From Desulfonatronovibrio magnus (GTDB lineage: Bacteria > Desulfobacterota > Desulfovibrionia > Desulfovibrionales > Desulfonatronovibrionaceae), in contig NZ_KN882175.1 in the NCBI RefSeq assembly GCF_000934755.1, positions 86,456 to 150,455 on the forward strand: DNA of 64,000 nucleotides. The letters are read 5' to 3'. The notes under the pieces were generated by a model, which saw only the letters and a list, made by a program, of their open reading frames with translations, searched no databases and was not told the DNA's origin. Positions within the stretch are counted from its first letter, which is position 1. Each line of letters begins with the position of its first letter. Both the position numbers and the translations under genes were made by a program. This document shows positions 10,513 to 62,082 of the stretch, piece after piece.

Positions 10513-11026
10513 GTATCTGTTTAGCGCTTACAAGTAACTACAATCGTTTTGCCAATAAAATCAGATGTTTACATTTTTCACATTTATACGGTTTTTGCTC
10601 ATGATTGATGCACATTTGCCAGAAAAGTTCCGTCAAAGATGAGAACTTTACGCCTGGCACAGCTTCCTGCCCGGAGGCTTACAGCCCGGAGGGGGACTGT
10701 CCCTCGCTGTGTAAATTTTACCATTAAAGCAAATTTCTTCCAGGAACCAATGCAGTATCCTTCTTATTTATAGTACCTCGCGGGGACTGTCCCAATTTCC
10801 AGAAAAGTGACAGACTCTTAAAGTTACTCGCAGGTTCGGTCCTGGTCCGCCCAGGTGAGGATCTTTTAAGGAAAGCAGGGGACAGGCACTCCGGGACCCA
10901 CTTGAGCATCAATTTGTGTTCAAAACTCATTCTTTGGGATAAGTGGTCCCGGAAAAGCCAGTCCCCCTCCGGGCTGTATGCCTCCGGGCAGGAAGCCATG
11001 CCACATCCAAAGCGCTAAACAGATAC
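10513..11026 (+). mobile_element. Family B MITE-like element B1, carrying A4; 8-bp target duplication
   Basis: Terminal inverted repeats are perfect over 17 bp: GTATCTGTTTAGCGCTT at 10513-10529 and its complement at 11010-11026. The 8-bp direct repeat GAATAACG lies immediately outside both ends (10505-10512 and 11027-11034). The B body (from about 10863) has GGGGACAGGCACTCCGGGAC, GGTCCCGGAAAAGCCAGTCCC and CCTCCGGGCTGTATGCCTCC. A complete family A unit is nested inside. There is no transposase frame, so the element must be mobilised in trans. Confidence 0.88.
10530..10862 (+). repeat. Family A repeat, copy A4, nested in B1
   Basis: Full-length A unit whose left edge follows the CTT of the B1 terminal repeat (gcgCTT) and whose right edge is followed by CTT and then TTAAGG. 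The uninterrupted copy B8 reads gcgCTTTTAAGG at this point. A4 therefore entered B1 with CTT present on both sides afterwards. It carries the CCCGGAGGCTTACAGCCCGG insert. Confidence 0.85.
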
Positions 11027-37990: not shown

Positions 37991-38121
37991 GGCTAACCTC
38001 CTTTATATATCAGTTAATTAATCATTTGGGTAAACAGTGAACTTAAGTCTTTACACGCAGCCAAAACTAAGGATATCAAATTAAAGTAACTATCGTTTTA
38101 TTTTAACAAATTCAGATACTT

Positions 38122-38455
38122 ACAAGTAACTATAATCGTTTTTGTAATAAAATCAGACGGTTATAATTTTCACAATTTTTATAATTTTTACATATGATTG
38201 ATTCTCAATTTCCTGAAAAGTTCCTTCAAAGATGGGAACTTTGCGCCTGGCACAGCTTCCTGCCCGGAGGCTTACAGCCCGGAGGGGGACTGTCCCTCGC
38301 TGTGTATATTTTTTCATCAAAGCAAATTTCTTACAGGAACCAATGCAGCATCAATCTTTTTTATAGTACCTCGCGGGGACTGTCCCAATTTTCAGAAAAG
38401 TGACAGTATCCTAAAGTTACTCACAAGTTCGGTCCCGGGCCGCCCGGGTGAGGAG
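38122..38455 (+). repeat. Family A repeat, copy A8 (near-identical twin of A12)
   Basis: 334 bp, flanked by CTT (38119-38121 and 38456-38458). Compared by eye with A12 at 61718-62051 it has the same length and one difference, close to the left end (TATAATCG against TATAGTCG). All other copies differ at many sites. It carries the CCCGGAGGCTTACAGCCCGG insert. Confidence 0.88.
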
Positions 38456-38458
38456 CTT

Positions 38459-38776
38459 CTAAGTAACTAAAATCGAATATGTAATAAATTGAGAGTATTA
38501 CGGATTTACCATAAAAATTACTTCGGTCGCTTAGGCTCCCTTGTGGGTGACAGGTTTTGAGCAACTACATCCCTGACAACTCAGGTGTCATTGCGAGCGA
38601 GTCTTCGAGCGCGGCAATCTCAAACGCGTTAAGGCTATTACCTCTTTTTTTGTGGCTTAAGCCACATTTTGAAGAAGCGGCTGGAGCCGCAAGAGTAAGA
38701 CGTCCCCAGGCTGGAGCCTGGGAACGAGGTGTATGAGTTACTCACAAGTTCGGTCCCGGCCCGCCCAGGTGAGAAG
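38459..38776 (+). repeat. Family C repeat, copy C4
   Basis: Long form with the GTGGCTTAAGCCAC, CGGCTGGAGCCG and CCAGGCTGGAGCCTGG palindromes. It shares CTT 38456-38458 with A8 and CTT 38777-38779 with the A fragment that follows. Confidence 0.83.
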
Positions 38777-38779
38777 CTT

Positions 38780-38872
38780 ACAAGTAACCAGAATCGTTTT
38801 TCTAACAAAATCAGACAGTTACATTTTTCAAATTTTTACGATTTATGCTTATGATTGATGCACATTTGCCAG
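38780..38872 (+). repeat. Left-end fragment of family A
   Basis: ACAAGTAACCAGAATCG through GATGCACATTTGCCAG, the first 93 bases of an A unit. The rest is missing. It ends 26 nt from the yedE stop. Confidence 0.72.
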
Positions 38873-40733: not shown

Positions 40734-41132
40734 ATGATAGAGATCAGCATGTTTAGAACAGAATCAGAGCCAACTCATTTTGTAAAACACGAGTCAGACA
40801 GCAGAGTTGAAGATGAATACTCAGATAGAGATATCCTGTGCCTGAGCTGCAAAGCTCCAATAACTAAGGAAAGTGAAGCAGTCAGGATAAATGACTCTCA
40901 CCGGCATGTCTTTGTGAATCCGCATGGACTGGTTTTTGAAGTGGGCTGTTATGGCAATGCTGGCAATGTTCTATGCGTTGGCCAGATTACCTCAGAATTC
41001 ACGTGGTTTCCAGGATACTCATGGCAGGCTGTGAGCTGTGCGCTTTGTCTGACGCACCTTGGATGGGTATATTACTTAGATGGCAACGAGGCTTTTTTTG
41101 GCTTTATTTTAGATCGTCTTGCAAGACAGTAA
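40734..41132 (+). CDS. Bacterial CULT-domain (cereblon-type) protein
   Basis: 132 aa, a stand-alone CULT domain, the fold that in human cereblon binds thalidomide and cyclic-imide degrons. Zinc ligands are two CxxC pairs: C36/C39 (ILCLSCK) and C102/C105 (SCALC). The aromatic cage is W91, W97 and W111 (FTWFPGYSW and HLGW). The 6 and 14 residue spacing equals that of cereblon W380/W386/W400, and the C102-W97 and C105-W111 distances also agree. VNPHGLVFEV is the usual strand before the pocket. No signal peptide is visible. ATG 40734 is preferred; the frame opens earlier, across a repeat end. The gene stands alone, and the natural ligand is unknown; uridine-like compounds and cyclic imides are known in vitro ligands of relatives. 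Confidence 0.9.
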   Translation: MIEISMFRTESEPTHFVKHESDSRVEDEYSDRDILCLSCKAPITKESEAVRINDSHRHVFVNPHGLVFEVGCYGNAGNVLCVGQITSEFTWFPGYSWQAVSCALCLTHLGWVYYLDGNEAFFGFILDRLARQ

Positions 41133-41244
41133 TGATGATGCAACCACAGCTTTTTGCCAGTGATGCACGCTTAAAGAATGTTAAAAAAATGTTATCGTTA
41201 TTGGTTATTCAGTTATCTTTTTTTACAGGCAAACAAATGTATCC

Positions 41245-41293
41245 GGTTGGAACGAGGAGAGTCCGGAACTGCAGGATTCTCCTCGTTCCAACC
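41245..41293. terminator. Long perfect hairpin after the CULT gene
   Basis: 16-bp perfect stem GGTTGGAACGAGGAGA (41245-41260) with its complement at 41278-41293, and a 17-nt loop that can itself pair TCC with GGA. There is no T run. It may act as a factor-independent or processing structure for the CULT transcript, or may be an unassigned small palindromic element. B4 inserted 13 bp beyond it. Confidence 0.55.
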
Positions 41294-41306
41294 AGGTATA
41301 TTAACT

Positions 41307-41488
41307 GTAATAGTTTAGCCATTTGCATGTGGCACGGCTTCCTGCCCGGAGGCATACAGCCCGGAGGGGGACTGGCTCTTCCGGGACTCACTTGTCTCAA
41401 AAGTGAGACGTTTAAATTACCGTTGACCCTCAAGTGGGGCCCGGAGTGCCTGTCCCCTGCTTTCCTTAAAAAAGGGCTAAACTATTAC
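41307..41488 (-). mobile_element. Family B MITE-like element B4; 8-bp target duplication
   Basis: 182 bp with 14-bp terminal inverted repeats GTAATAGTTTAGCC (41307-41320) and complement (41475-41488). The direct repeat TATTAACT is present at 41299-41306 and 41489-41496. No repeat is nested inside. The body is the B core with CCTGCCCGGAGGCATACAGC and GTGAGACGTTT. It is a clean, complete insertion between the CULT gene and the M23 gene. Confidence 0.88.
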
Positions 41489-41502
41489 TATTAACTGAAT
41501 TT

Positions 41503-42336
41503 TCACTCCAGCAATAGCATAGGATCAACTGCCTGACCAAGAACATAGACACCTAAGTGCAGATGCGGCCCTGTCGCCCTGCCAGTCATGCCCACAAGGC
41601 CTACAAGGTCTCCCTTAGAAATATACTCACCCTTGTTTACATTGATTTCACTTAAATGCATATAAACAGTCACAAACCCAAGACCATGGTCCAGAATTAC
41701 AGTTTTGCCTCCAAAGTAAAAATCACCTGTTAAGATCACTCTGCCCGTTTCCATGGCCTTGACAGGTGTTCCCTCAGGTCCTCTTAAGTCCACTCCCCTG
41801 TGCGGTGCCCTTGGCTCATCATTAAGAAAACGCCTGACTCCAAAAGGAGAGCTTACGCTTCCTGATGCCGGCCGAACAAAATCAGTTGTCCAATATCTTT
41901 CAGGACTGAGAGTGTTCAGGGCATTCACAGTCTTCTCCCGTTCTCTAACTATACGATCGATAACTTCCTGAGGCGGAGTTACCATGGATTCAGGAAGCGT
42001 TAGGCGCTGCTCAGGATAGTCCTTGGCGGATATATATACATTAAACTCTTCAACAATCTGCTCATCGCCAAAATCAAAAGAAATAGACAATGGATACTTA
42101 CCTTTATGATCCAGCCCTGCACTTAGAAGAATGCTCTGTGTTCCGTTGAAATCTACCGGATACTCAACAGTTTTTTCAAGCCATTGAACTGTAAGGGAAT
42201 CTGGATTTTTATCAGACACAAACTCCACCCAAAACGGTTCACCCTGCCCTACCCTTTCGGGCAAGTTAATGGTTGCTGCTTTGACAGGCAAAACCCATAA
42301 AAAGAATACCAGTATGGCCAGCAATGCTCTTTTCAT
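41503..42336 (-). CDS. M23 family (LytM-type) metallopeptidase, exported
   Basis: 277 aa. The signal peptide MKRALLAILVFFLWVLPVKA is followed by a beta-rich region of about 100 residues. The C-terminal LytM domain carries the zinc ligands: H and D in PHRGVDLRG and the HxH of GPHLHLGVYV. The catalytic-side histidine is in VYMHLSEI. The enzyme or pseudo-enzyme would act on peptidoglycan cross-links in the periplasm. All four zinc and catalytic positions appear present, so it should be active. GGAGG precedes ATG 42336. It is the last gene of the minus-strand series from ycjX, after C5. Confidence 0.9.
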   Translation of the reverse strand: MKRALLAILVFFLWVLPVKAATINLPERVGQGEPFWVEFVSDKNPDSLTVQWLEKTVEYPVDFNGTQSILLSAGLDHKGKYPLSISFDFGDEQIVEEFNVYISAKDYPEQRLTLPESMVTPPQEVIDRIVREREKTVNALNTLSPERYWTTDFVRPASGSVSSPFGVRRFLNDEPRAPHRGVDLRGPEGTPVKAMETGRVILTGDFYFGGKTVILDHGLGFVTVYMHLSEINVNKGEYISKGDLVGLVGMTGRATGPHLHLGVYVLGQAVDPMLLLE

Positions 42337-42474
42337 ATCTCAACCTCCAATTTTTATTCCATCATAACCTGAATTGACAAACATTATACTCGAATTGTCT
42401 GCAGGGACGTATGACCTGCAATTATTCAGGCAGGGACAGTTTCTCTCATGCTATTAACTACCTTAAAAGTTAAT

Positions 42475-42734
42475 ATAATCGTATATGCAATAAAATCAAA
42501 ACATTATGGTTTTACCATACAGATTGCTTCGGTCGCTTAGGCTCCCTCGTGGGTGACAGGTTTTGAGCAACTACATCCCTGACAGCTCAGGTAACATTGC
42601 GAGCGAGTCTTTTTACCCTGAATAAACGCAGTGTAGGCGCAGCCATTCAACTGGGGCGAGCGCGGCAATCCCTAACCCGTTAAGGCTATTTCAAGTTACT
42701 CGCAGGCTTGGTCCCGGGCCGCCCGGGTGAGGAG
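42475..42734 (+). repeat. Family C repeat, copy C5, overlapping the TgpA-type stop
   Basis: Left flank CTT 42472-42474; the right flank is CTG. It has the GCAGTGTAGGCGCAGCCATTC insert seen in C3. The transglutaminase frame runs through its right end on the other strand and finishes at 42686. Confidence 0.8.
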
Positions 42735-44773
42735 CTGACAAGTAAATCTTTTAATGAATTCTCTTTTTCCCGGTCAGGATGTGGACCATACCTCTGCTCG
42801 TTATATACTTTTTTAATTCTTTCGACTTTGTCGGGAAAATACAAAGCCCACCATTGCCATATCTTATCCTCAGCACCAGGGGAACTCAAGTTATGTCTGC
42901 CCGGTGTTTTTGATGCCAATAGCTTCCAGGCCCTTATCCTGAACTGTTTACCTGTAGGATGGCTCCTCAAGGGAATCAAGCCTGACAGGACAAGTATCAT
43001 AATCAAACCAGATACAACCAGCCCCACCTTCATCCATAACTTGCCATCCTGGAAAACATTTTTCAGGATATTTTCAAAATCTGAAATTTTAATTCCGGTC
43101 CAGGTCTGATCAAAGGATGTCCTGACAGAGCTCCACATTCGTGCCTGCCTGGCAAGGTTTAAATCAATAACCCAATTGGTCCATTGCCACCTTAACCAGT
43201 CAACAACACGTACCGAAGGGGAAACCATTTGATCTGCAGGAATACTGTCTGTTGCTCCGTCTTCATCCTGCCCTTCATCCACATTCAAATCAAGGTAACG
43301 GGTTGGATCAAGCCTTACCCAGCCTCTGTCCGCAAACCATGCTTCTACCCAGGCGTGAGCCATGCTGTCCCTTATTATCCAGTATTCACCCACAGGATTG
43401 TATTCTCCTCCCCAGAAACCAACCACTACCCTTGAGGGGATGCTGTTCAGTCTCAAAAACATCACCATGGCAGCAGCATATAATTCACAGTACCCGGTTT
43501 TGGTCTGAGTCAAAAATTCTTCTAATGTCTGTCCATGTTCAAACCCGACTGGCGCCTGCAGACTGTATGAAAAACCCTGAGAGTTGAAATAAAACAGAAT
43601 GGACTGAGCAATATCCCATGGCTCACTGTCATCTTCAGCAAAAGTGCTGGCAATGTCGTGCACACTTTGACTGATATCATCAGGAATTCGCGTTCCTGCT
43701 GACTTTTCTTCAGGGGTCAAAGGCTTTGTATTTTCCATGACTGAATAAAGCTCATATCTGACAGCACTTTCCGGAGCTTCATCAAGCTTCACAGTGCCAT
43801 CACGGTTATAATTAACTCCGGATAAATTCATAATCCTGCCGGGAAAGTACAGTCCGAACAAATGCTCTGTTCTCCCCGGATTAAGAGTAATAGTCTGCAA
43901 AACAACATCCTCACCAACAATTGAGGATCGCAGTGGTGTTGTCTGGTAGTCATGCGGGGCCCCGGGAATCCAACTTGAACCGTCAGTCTGCCATAGAACA
44001 GCCCCCCTCCAGTATAGGTGGGAAGAGTGGTAAACCTGATCTATCTGAGCCCTGAAAGCAATCCTGTTAGATTCAGCAATACCTGCAATACCACCAGGAG
44101 TCATCTCTGGACTGAATCCAGTTCGAGCTATTTCAAGTCCTGCCCCCAAGTTCAGCATAGGATTGATATTTCTTGGAAAAGCGAAAAAAATCAAAAGCCC
44201 CAGCAAAACCGTAATCATGGTCAAAAAAAGAGCAAAACCAGCTAACTTGAGAGAAAAAAACTTGCTCAGACGAAAATTTCTTCCAGACTTAACCGCCTGA
44301 TCAAAGATGTGCTGCCACAATATCAAAACAAGACCTGTAAAAAAATATGAGAAAATTAAAACTCCAAAACCCAGATCAAATCTGATTATTGAAGCCACTC
44401 CAAGTCCCAGAATTCCTAAACCGCAAAACTGAAAGGCATCTCGCTGTTTTTTAAGCTCCATCAGCTTAATGGACAACATAAGGGCAAGGGCCTGGGCCAT
44501 GACTATCTGCCAGCCCTGATCCCAATTAGTTACTGTGGCAAGACCGCTCAGAGCCAGGACAAGCATTAGCCTTAAACTGTAAGAGAAAACTTCATTTTTT
44601 CCCTGAAAGGCATGGACAAACACAAGAATAACTGCCGCAATCCAGAACCAGACTATCCACCAGCTCAAAATGGGGTTCAAGGCAAGCATTACACAAGATC
44701 CTGAAATACTTCCCAGGATGGGCGTCCAGTACCTGATGCTGCCAGGTGTTGCGTAAGAAGATAAGTTGTGCAT
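42686..44773 (-). CDS. TgpA-type membrane transglutaminase (DUF3488 and transglutaminase-like)
   Basis: 695 aa. About six helices come first (DUF3488). A periplasmic transglutaminase-like domain follows with the triad cysteine in TKTGYCELYAAAMVMF, histidine in MAHAWVEAW and aspartate in VRLDPTRY. A further helix (LVVSGLIMILVLSGLI, about residue 605) and a cytoplasmic tail complete it. The last 15 residues, SSPGRPGTKPASNLK, are translated from the right end of repeat C5. The original end is therefore lost or lengthened. It follows MoxR and DUF58 genes, the usual trio, with repeat A9 between. Confidence 0.93.
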   Translation of the reverse strand: MHNLSSYATPGSIRYWTPILGSISGSCVMLALNPILSWWIVWFWIAAVILVFVHAFQGKNEVFSYSLRLMLVLALSGLATVTNWDQGWQIVMAQALALMLSIKLMELKKQRDAFQFCGLGILGLGVASIIRFDLGFGVLIFSYFFTGLVLILWQHIFDQAVKSGRNFRLSKFFSLKLAGFALFLTMITVLLGLLIFFAFPRNINPMLNLGAGLEIARTGFSPEMTPGGIAGIAESNRIAFRAQIDQVYHSSHLYWRGAVLWQTDGSSWIPGAPHDYQTTPLRSSIVGEDVVLQTITLNPGRTEHLFGLYFPGRIMNLSGVNYNRDGTVKLDEAPESAVRYELYSVMENTKPLTPEEKSAGTRIPDDISQSVHDIASTFAEDDSEPWDIAQSILFYFNSQGFSYSLQAPVGFEHGQTLEEFLTQTKTGYCELYAAAMVMFLRLNSIPSRVVVGFWGGEYNPVGEYWIIRDSMAHAWVEAWFADRGWVRLDPTRYLDLNVDEGQDEDGATDSIPADQMVSPSVRVVDWLRWQWTNWVIDLNLARQARMWSSVRTSFDQTWTGIKISDFENILKNVFQDGKLWMKVGLVVSGLIMILVLSGLIPLRSHPTGKQFRIRAWKLLASKTPGRHNLSSPGAEDKIWQWWALYFPDKVERIKKVYNEQRYGPHPDREKENSLKDLLVSSSPGRPGTKPASNLK

Positions 44774-44921
44774 AACTATCTGAGAGTTGGGATAACTTGA
44801 AAATAAAAGTTATCAGTAAATTGTTAATAACTGGACAGTGAAAAGTTATCCCCGTCATGCCGGACTTGATGCGGAATCCAGGAATTATCTTAGTGTAAGA
44901 TCGCCCAGAGTTATTGAGAAG

Positions 44922-45288
44922 CTCCCCACCAGGGCGGCCCGGGACCGAACCTGCGAGTAACTGTCTTTAAAGTGGAGCCTGCATCCTGCAGGCTATTTAA
45001 TTCCAGGCGGCTGGAAGCCGCCTCCACATTGAAGAACATTCCCATATTTGGACATTGGGACAGTCCCCGCGAGGAAACGTTAAAAAGTTTGATACTGCAT
45101 TGGTTTCTGGCAAAAATCGGTTTTAATGAAAAAATTTACATAGCGAGGGACAGTCCCTGTGCCAAGCGCAAAGTTCCCATCTTTGACGGAACTTTTCTGG
45201 TAATTGTAAGTGAATCTTAAGGAAAAATCGTAAAAAAATGAAAATCATAAAAGCTTGAAATAATTGACATAAAAATATAGTTACTTAG
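44922..45288 (-). repeat. Family A repeat, copy A9
   Basis: AAG on both sides (44919-44921 and 45289-45291). It carries the GGAGCCTGCATCCTGCAGGC and CCAGGCGGCTGGAAGCC palindromes. It shares private changes with A11 (ACGTTAAAAAG and AAAATCGGTTTTAATG), so these two form a subfamily. It ends 7 nt from the DUF58 gene's stop. The gap on its other side contains a short E-like piece (GTCATGCCGGACTTGATGCG). Confidence 0.83.
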
Positions 45289-45295
45289 AAGTTGT

Positions 45296-46240
45296 TTATA
45301 GTTCAGAGTTATGAACCGGCAACGGCTCAACAAGAGCCAGAGACCATAGAGCCTGTTCCAGGTTAAGTTTGCCTGAACCAGATATTTCAACTGCTGGCAG
45401 GTTCAACTTCCATGAGGTATTAGACAGAACCATTTCATCCAGCAACGTCCGAAAAAGTGAAAGCCTTTTTTCAGTATCTAAGTGTTGATAAACAGGATCA
45501 TCCCAGTCCAACACAAGAGCCTTAGATGCTTCATGAGCAAAACTGTGAGCCGGCCATTGCGAATTGTCTGCTCCCATGGCAGGTTTTTGCCAGTCAAGAC
45601 GACGCCACACAATACTGGACATACTTTCGCCGGGGCGGTATTGCCTGATACCTTTCCATTCTCCCAGACCCTGCCCGGTGTTGAGAGTTTCTGACTGCTT
45701 TTCATTCTTTGCAAAAACCTGTTCCATAAGATCATTATCCGGAGCAGGAGAAACCACAATCACAGCCCTGGCATCATAGTATCCTCCTCGAACCACAAAG
45801 CCAAAAGGAAAAGACGAAGTTACTTTAACATAAGGTAACGAAACTTTGCCTCGATGCCATGGGGTCCATGGCAGGAAAACTTCACTGGATGCTTTAGAGT
45901 TAAGAACGGGTATAACCTGGGTATGGTCTTCCAGGCCAACATCAAGAACAATGGATGCCAGGCGTTTGTTATTTTTAATACTTATCTGAATTAGATTTTG
46001 TCTTTGGGCTGTAGGAACTTTGCTGGAATTTGCTTTTATGCTCAGTCCGGAAACATTATAAAGAGCAGTCAGGCCTGAAAGAAAAAGAAGACTCAACAAT
46101 AAAGAGGTGAGCAGGAATAGAACATTATTATTGCTGTTGACAGCGGCGAGTCCCAATACCATGGTCAAAAGTACATAAATCCAGCCCGAAAGGCTCAGCC
46201 TGGCTCTGATTGTACTTACTTTTCTACTATCCCCAGACAT
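45296..46240 (-). CDS. DUF58 family protein
   Basis: 314 aa. Two N-terminal helices (IYVLLTMVLGLAAVNSNNNVLFLL and the following) anchor it. The soluble part holds the DUF58 hallmark EWKGIRQYRPGESMSSIVWRRLDWQKP, which corresponds to the R-Y-pGD-n-R-IhW motif, and precedes a VWA-like region, ALVLDWDDPVYQHL. It is the usual partner of MoxR ATPases and TgpA-type proteins; biochemical role is unresolved. It begins within the end of the moxR frame (14-nt overlap), so translation is coupled. Confidence 0.9.
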   Translation of the reverse strand: MSGDSRKVSTIRARLSLSGWIYVLLTMVLGLAAVNSNNNVLFLLTSLLLSLLFLSGLTALYNVSGLSIKANSSKVPTAQRQNLIQISIKNNKRLASIVLDVGLEDHTQVIPVLNSKASSEVFLPWTPWHRGKVSLPYVKVTSSFPFGFVVRGGYYDARAVIVVSPAPDNDLMEQVFAKNEKQSETLNTGQGLGEWKGIRQYRPGESMSSIVWRRLDWQKPAMGADNSQWPAHSFAHEASKALVLDWDDPVYQHLDTEKRLSLFRTLLDEMVLSNTSWKLNLPAVEISGSGKLNLEQALWSLALVEPLPVHNSEL

Positions 46241-61326: not shown

Positions 61327-61412
61327 AAGCCTGCCCTCTGCCCCCTGATCTCTAACCCCTGACTTCTGCCCCCCTGACCTCTGATCTCTGACCTCTGCCC
61401 TCTGCCCTCTGA
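61327..61412 (+). repeat. Heptamer tandem array (CTCTGCC / CTCTGAC type), left part
   Basis: Repeated units CTCTGCC, CTCTGAC, TTCTGCC and CTGATCT in a row. It stops at gaCTT, where A11 begins. The right part of the array follows A12. Confidence 0.8.
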
Positions 61413-61415
61413 CTT

Positions 61416-61714
61416 CTAAGTAACTACATTTTTATGTCAATCATTTCAAGCTGTTATGGTTTTCAGTTTTTTACGATTTTTCTTTAAGATTCACTTACAA
61501 TTACCAGAAAAGTCCCGTAAAAGATGGGAACTTTGCGCTTGGCACAGGGACTGTCCCTCGCTATGTAAATTTTTTCATTAAAACCGATTTTTGCCAAAAA
61601 CCAATGCAGTATCAAACTTTTTAACGTTTCCTTGCGGGGACTGTCCCAATGTCCATAGAGGAGACTCATTTTCAGTTACTCGCAGGTTCGGTCCCGGGCC
61701 AGCCGGATGAGGAG
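61416..61714 (+). repeat. Family A repeat, copy A11
   Basis: CTT at 61413-61415 and 61715-61717, the first inside the heptamer array. It carries the same private changes as A9 and a short form of the right half (CCATAGAGGAGACTC). Confidence 0.84.
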
Positions 61715-61717
61715 CTT

Positions 61718-62051
61718 ACAAGTAACTATAGTCGTTTTTGTAATAAAATCAGACGGTTATAATTTTCACAATTTTTATAATTTTTACATATGATTGATTC
61801 TCAATTTCCTGAAAAGTTCCTTCAAAGATGGGAACTTTGCGCCTGGCACAGCTTCCTGCCCGGAGGCTTACAGCCCGGAGGGGGACTGTCCCTCGCTGTG
61901 TATATTTTTTCATCAAAGCAAATTTCTTACAGGAACCAATGCAGCATCAATCTTTTTTATAGTACCTCGCGGGGACTGTCCCAATTTTCAGAAAAGTGAC
62001 AGTATCCTAAAGTTACTCACAAGTTCGGTCCCGGGCCGCCCGGGTGAGGAG
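61718..62051 (+). repeat. Family A repeat, copy A12
   Basis: 334 bp, one visible base different from A8 located 23.6 kb away. CTT 62052-62054 on the right is followed by CTGACTTCTGATCTCTGCCC, i.e. the heptamer array again. It is the youngest-looking insertion in the window. Confidence 0.88.
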
Positions 62052-62082
62052 CTTCTGACTTCTGATCTCTGCCCTCTGCTCA
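62052..62082 (+). repeat. Heptamer tandem array, right part
   Basis: Continuation of the CTCTGCC/TTCTGAC array interrupted by the A11-A12 pair. It joins seamlessly to the left part if the pair and one CTT-bounded junction are removed. Confidence 0.75.

Follow-up and report, generated by a model that had tools for sequence, protein, structure and literature searches.

Repeats that supply the end of a bacterial protein have been described before, and the nearest cases are given here from excerpts of the respective papers. The RU-1 repeat appears to have removed the stop codon of the Erwinia carotovora amidase ECA3499 (PMC2759123). QMITE2 lies in frame at the 3' end of Coxiella enhC (Dugway), where the C-terminal 33 residues presumably derive from it and the stop codon follows immediately, and QMITE1 overlaps the ends of other Coxiella genes by 2-50 bp (PMC5896051). 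REP elements are high-copy palindromes, mostly intergenic and often adjoining 3' ends, for which coding-end cases have been counted (PMC3733652), and the palindromic elements of Rickettsia become translated parts of unrelated proteins (reviewed in PMC10969869).

The locus analyzed here lies in a 64,000-nt stretch of Desulfonatronovibrio magnus DNA (the window), in which the frame of a tgpA-type gene runs into a repeat, C5, that carries a terminal palindromic module, H. It resembles RU-1/ECA3499 in having a repeat at the end of an enzyme gene; as that case is given in the excerpt, it differs in that the repeat, host and enzyme are unrelated and the tail in ECA3499 is longer. Like QMITE2 in enhC, the repeat supplies a protein end with the stop directly after it (PMC5896051), but two strains were compared for enhC, whose extended protein had been described earlier, whereas the tgpA comparison draws on relatives of other species. 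H fits the REP-like family, as the excerpted report describes it, in being a short high-copy palindrome and mostly extragenic. Of the REP placement near 3' ends and between unidirectional or convergent genes, H shows greater closeness to 3' than to 5' ends, with 22 of 127 copies between convergent and 28 between divergent genes. It departs from that family in several ways: inspection by eye of both termini of the consensus for H revealed neither GTAG nor CGTC, the tags of two REP super-families (PMC3733652), no RAYT (Y1) transposase gene flanked by H was found, cassettes of 200-300 nt are attached, and convergent gene pairs are not enriched for H. Nearly half of the Rickettsia elements lie within genes (PMC10969869, excerpt), in contrast to H, which is nearly absent from predicted genes (126/128 copies outside). 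The titles and abstract openings of 12 of the 21 papers matched on Desulfonatronospira and Desulfonatronovibrio held no description of the H/C5 repeat family. Repeat-derived protein ends are already known, and the tgpA tail is a new instance, ordinary in kind. By itself it raises no new question; its value lies in clear boundaries: non-coding repeat DNA has turned into a conserved protein's C-terminus, a relative has the gene order intact and repeat-free, and the wider pattern, the near-absence of H from predicted genes and its closeness to 3' ends, was measured alongside.

The tgpA-type gene and repeat C5

The features of the locus are as follows.

41503..42336, minus strand: M23 peptidase gene, the 3' neighbour of tgpA (Pfam Peptidase_M23; order shared with genome G003)
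About 42461..42747, plus strand: repeat C5, a cassette of ~232 nt plus a terminal H palindrome (match pile-up, boundary counts, repeat mask)
42686..44773, minus strand: tgpA-type transmembrane transglutaminase-like gene (695-aa ORF, ATG start, Pfam domains)
42686..42745, minus strand: the last 19 codons (677-695) and stop of tgpA, in repeat DNA (ORF, repeat edge, orthologue comparison)
42693..42745, plus strand: H module, a 53-nt palindromic unit whose minus-strand reading encodes most of the new tail (72 aligned rows)
44909..45292, minus strand: repeat C6, opposite in orientation to C5 (repeat mask; H on the minus strand)
45296..46240, minus strand: gene upstream of tgpA (ORF)

The product of the tgpA ORF matched two Pfam models, TgpA_N (PF11992) at residues 23-347 (E 4.3e-56, 190.7 bits against a cut-off of 30) and Transglut_core (PF01841) at residues 379-490 (E 3.9e-20, profile positions 8-108 of 108); no NCBIfam model matched at E 0.001. 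Both domains suggest a TgpA-type transglutaminase-like enzyme, with the corresponding predicted activity. Over 561 codons compared with the nearest orthologue (G004), 109 positions differed at first codon sites, 66 at second and 251 at third, and this concentration at third positions (251 compared to 66 second) suggests that the gene is maintained; apart from its end, it is intact. The product ends ...KENSLKDLLVSSSPGRPGTKPASNLK. An initial reading made from the letters of the window (the sequence-only reading) had spoken of the domain tail of a conserved membrane enzyme; the membrane enzyme domains were found, whereas the tail itself, rich in Pro, Gly and Ser and unconserved, lies past the recognized domains.

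The same reading had claimed that C5 supplies the C-terminus of TgpA, and this was borne out. The ORF at 42686-44773 enters the repeat. Since the C5 edge at 42745 falls inside the open frame, the repeat contains codons 677-695 together with the stop. The edge is sharp: among 104 local matches to 42300-42900, searched in the window and 39 same-genome stretches (one of which, L036, overlaps the window, so that a few matches were counted twice), coverage fell from 48 at 42744 to 4 at 42749, and more matches ended at 42745 (35) than at any other position. L036 was excluded from the repeat-mask sample as a duplicate of the window. H (42693-42745) provides 17 codons and part of another, and the adjoining cassette gives the remainder, including the stop, a TAG. 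Translation of the added part yields (S)SSPGRPGTKPASNLK, a peptide of 15-16 residues. The earlier count of 15 residues from C5 holds as a minimum and falls short of the 19 codons spanned by repeat DNA. The start of 42475 given in that reading differs from both the end of the gene, 42686, and the edge of the repeat, 42461.

An alignment of matches at least 35 nt long, with 72 rows of which one is a duplicate, gave the H consensus AGTTACTCACAGGTTCGGTCCCGGGCCGCCCGGGTGAGGAGCTTACAAGTAACT, whose ends carry AGTTACT...AGTAACT. Allowing up to 3 mismatches, the 4.81-Mb genome contains 283 copies of a 28-bp core, compared to 0 for a reversed-pattern control, so that the abundance exceeds chance. With a longer H query, matches were obtained in 7 of the 18 genomes of the family, the own genome included. 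Ten matches to Y1_Tnp were present in the genome; H was found at one of these ten loci, in a frame with an internal stop, where its density would predict 4-5 H in that amount of DNA. No mobilizing enzyme for H was found and there was no association with Y1_Tnp loci.

C6 is placed between tgpA and the upstream gene, its edge 3 nt past the stop of the latter. The upstream gene, which we took to be DUF58-like from the operon context, matched no Pfam or NCBIfam model at E 0.001. Two oppositely oriented repeats (42461-42747 and 44909-45292) therefore flank tgpA, their H modules pointing toward the gene, and the spacing between the upstream gene and tgpA, split by C6, is 522 nt in the window compared to 1 nt in G009 and 70 nt in G003. 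A search of Rfam over 41000-46000 at E up to 0.5 returned one weak miRNA match (23.3 bits, far under the cut-off of 70), which we attributed to chance.

Orthologous tails and the origin of the joint

At E 1e-20, tgpA had a match in 30 of 61 genomes and in 6 of 18 within the family, both counts including its own genome. We compared the tails of the five family orthologues; order-level relatives mostly align to about residue 550 (G055 to 685). This comparison had been set beforehand as the test that could refute a repeat-supplied end, and the tail was present in none of the five. G004, 74% identical over residues 119-680, ends ...KENLLRDLLVR and G006 ends ...RLKELLSRR, each directly before the stop; the ends are ...KLKSLLSGMYTRALPVND in G003, ...RLKYLLSGTYFNCNR in G005 and ...RLKTLLAGRLPCAYKQKKGYGTKSITP in G009. 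The tails of G003 and G005 are alike in SG-Y, and none of the five resembles the new peptide. Following the conserved LL there are 17 residues in the window, 2 in G004, 3 in G006, 12 in G003, 9 in G005 and 21 in G009. Because relatives show differing tails of 2-21 residues, the C-terminal end of TgpA appears to tolerate change.

The 21-residue tail of G009 contains no H. The ORF there enters the 3' flank of an opposite-strand tRNA-Arg gene (L086:4980-5100), and the tail is an independent, non-H change of the same protein end. Part of it was first read as another mobile repeat, since three of four genomes contained matches to it elsewhere, and that reading was dropped because the sequence is the 3' flank of the tRNA-Arg gene.

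The joint itself was best seen against G004, in which GAT TTG CTT GTT AGA TAG corresponds to GAT TTA CTT GTC AGC TCC TCA in the window, with LLV common to both. Since G004, which has no repeat here, encodes DLLV as well, the exact joint is ambiguous over ~11 nt. The H end TTACTTGTAAG matches G004 tgpA at the insertion site in 9 of 11 bases, the sole match of at least 9/11 among 1676 positions of the G004 tgpA fragment, for an 11-mer that was picked after the joint had been seen, which makes the match a lead.

Our strongly favored explanation is that a REP/MITE-like repeat inserted in the last codons of tgpA and that neutral read-through added the tail. The repeat, consisting of the cassette and the H palindrome, would have entered there, in the short gap ahead of the M23 gene, separating the original stop from tgpA. 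The entry site proposed from the sequence, the old stop or a point immediately ahead of it, fits G004, which stops one codon after the common DLLV. By chance, the frame entered has no stop anywhere in the H palindrome, so that translation would continue until the TAG at the H/cassette joint, with 15-16 residues added to the C-terminus. The repeat probably moved as a unit, and the tail is presumably translated, selectively neutral and kept since the TgpA end tolerates change. Neutral retention is the economical reading because no recognized domain extends into the tail and relatives vary at this end of the protein, and the predicted tail gives no sign of a functional role. Of the proposal that a mobile repeat had changed a protein end, the changed end is observed, and the mobility of C5 is suggested by its copy number and the empty site. 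The points that speak against insertion are that no target-site duplication was recognized at C5 by eye, that a mobilizing enzyme was not found and that local matches to G003 and G004 beyond the repeat revealed nothing recognizable as left over from the former 3' end. Such matches as occurred past the repeat (scores of 18 to G003 and 15 to G004) were short and were taken as chance. The pre-insertion state is known approximately: G004 has another 3' neighbour, a gene designated LGT, and G003 has its own tail.

A repeat-repeat rearrangement, or a deletion with its breakpoint in a downstream repeat, might instead have joined the frame to H with no insertion into tgpA, a possibility that we consider doubtful but the most serious competitor. 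The 3' neighbours of tgpA do vary, being M23 in G003, LGT in G004, tRNA-Arg in G009 and thioredoxin in G006; the repeat is abundant enough for recombination, and the old 3' end is not recognizable past it. However, G003, of the same genus, keeps the tgpA-M23 order without the repeat (26 nt between the genes compared to 349 nt in the window; no H match in its genome, which is 86% complete), indicating that no large rearrangement is needed. A small deletion beside a downstream insertion may still have produced the joint.

Placement of H and other repeat-derived protein ends

We surveyed the placement of H in same-genome stretches joined to 860 kb, the window included, using 564 gene proxies derived from codon usage (coding fraction 0.74-0.80). 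H copies lay off the gene proxies in 126 of 128 cases, a count that depends on these proxies since an ORF without a Pfam match may still be a gene. When copies were placed at random (20 rounds), on average 26.45 were intergenic and 96.05 fell within genes, while 3' ends received 3.0 and 5' ends 2.5. The two copies on genes were those of tgpA and folE2, both at 3' ends; the tgpA copy had been classed as inside since the stop falls just beyond H, and it is actually at the gene end. H clusters overlapped their neighbour by more than 5 nt at 6 of 84 3' ends compared to 0 of 89 5' ends (Fisher p 0.012), and clusters overlapping or within 20 nt were found at 30 of 84 3' ends and 10 of 89 5' ends (p 0.00014). 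Six of the 87 H-bearing clusters overlapped genes by more than 5 nt, four of them by 6-11 nt, folE2 by 24 nt and tgpA by 60 nt, the longest. Repeats directly adjoining stop codons are thus frequent, and tgpA represents the extreme of this distribution. A simple 3'-end preference is countered by the orientation of neighbouring genes because, among the 127 H copies with two neighbours, placement between convergent genes (22) was not above that between divergent genes (28).

The crowding of H clusters at 3' ends raises the possibility that H is kept for an RNA hairpin, whether for 3' protection of the mRNA or for decoupling of tgpA and M23, with the tail as a by-product. The folding energy of a 58-nt segment containing H, -22 kcal/mol (z -2.4 relative to shuffles), is in line with such a role. 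For 81 nt around H, however, z was weak, at -1.8 for the strand that is read and -0.8 for its complement, no T-run follows by eye, and the convergent and divergent counts do not favor a hairpin role either. Purging of harmful insertions would equally leave H crowded at 3' ends, and we regard a hairpin role as unlikely.

Across the 860 kb, repeat DNA was flagged at the end of or within 23 ORFs. Besides tgpA, nine and a further ten were scanned with Pfam, and three that span a masked stretch were left out of the scan. Five of the nine had matches; the further ten had none, nor did three additional ORFs from a smaller sample. The five are listed below.

L095:1963-2754, minus strand: folE2 (GTP cyclohydrolase, Pfam GCHY-1), C-terminus running 7 codons into H
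L114:16759-17850, minus strand: TsaD, 13 terminal codons in other (non-H) repeated DNA
L112:7521-8879: AroA, 10 terminal codons in a run of GGCTGAA units
L120:2028-3371: FliI/YscN-type ATPase, 4 terminal codons in other repeated DNA
L101:2860-3870, minus strand: trypsin-family protein, 4 terminal codons in other repeated DNA

The FolE2 product ends ...AYARIDSKVPHPGGRD, its last 7 codons in H, and FolE2 ends differ in the 9 relatives compared out of 17 with a match (...AYARICRPAV before the stop in G004, for example). The TsaD tails are likewise variable among the 7 relatives compared (15 with a match). It might be proposed that H enters beside stops at sites resembling its own end, repeatedly giving conserved proteins new C-terminal peptides. 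The folE2 joint falls elsewhere in H than the tgpA joint, which disfavors a fixed H target, and we find this generalization improbable. That a second conserved enzyme, FolE2, has an H-derived end could also suggest that the tgpA tail was taken into function as an adaptive C-terminal innovation. The composition of the tail, its position outside the domains, its lack of conservation and the 2-21 other residues carried by relatives argue against this, and we give it very little credence. C-terminal tails of otherwise conserved proteins in repeat-rich genomes are not to be read as functional. An assembly or sequencing artefact at the repeat, conceivable in a draft genome of 134 contigs with many repeats, is scarcely credible for a joint deep within a 797-kb contig, at a repeat of 285 nt, which is short, and with a gene order across the joint that agrees with G003.

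Repeats make up ~11% of the window. H palindromes alternate with cassettes of 200-300 nt in modular arrays, for example at 525-1451, 38118-38872 and 61412-62056, and the arrays contain several kinds of cassette whose end sequences recur. Another short repeat, whose core is GGGGACAGGCACT, has 7 copies in the window, one of them at 10864-10899; at two or more sites it directly adjoins an H end.
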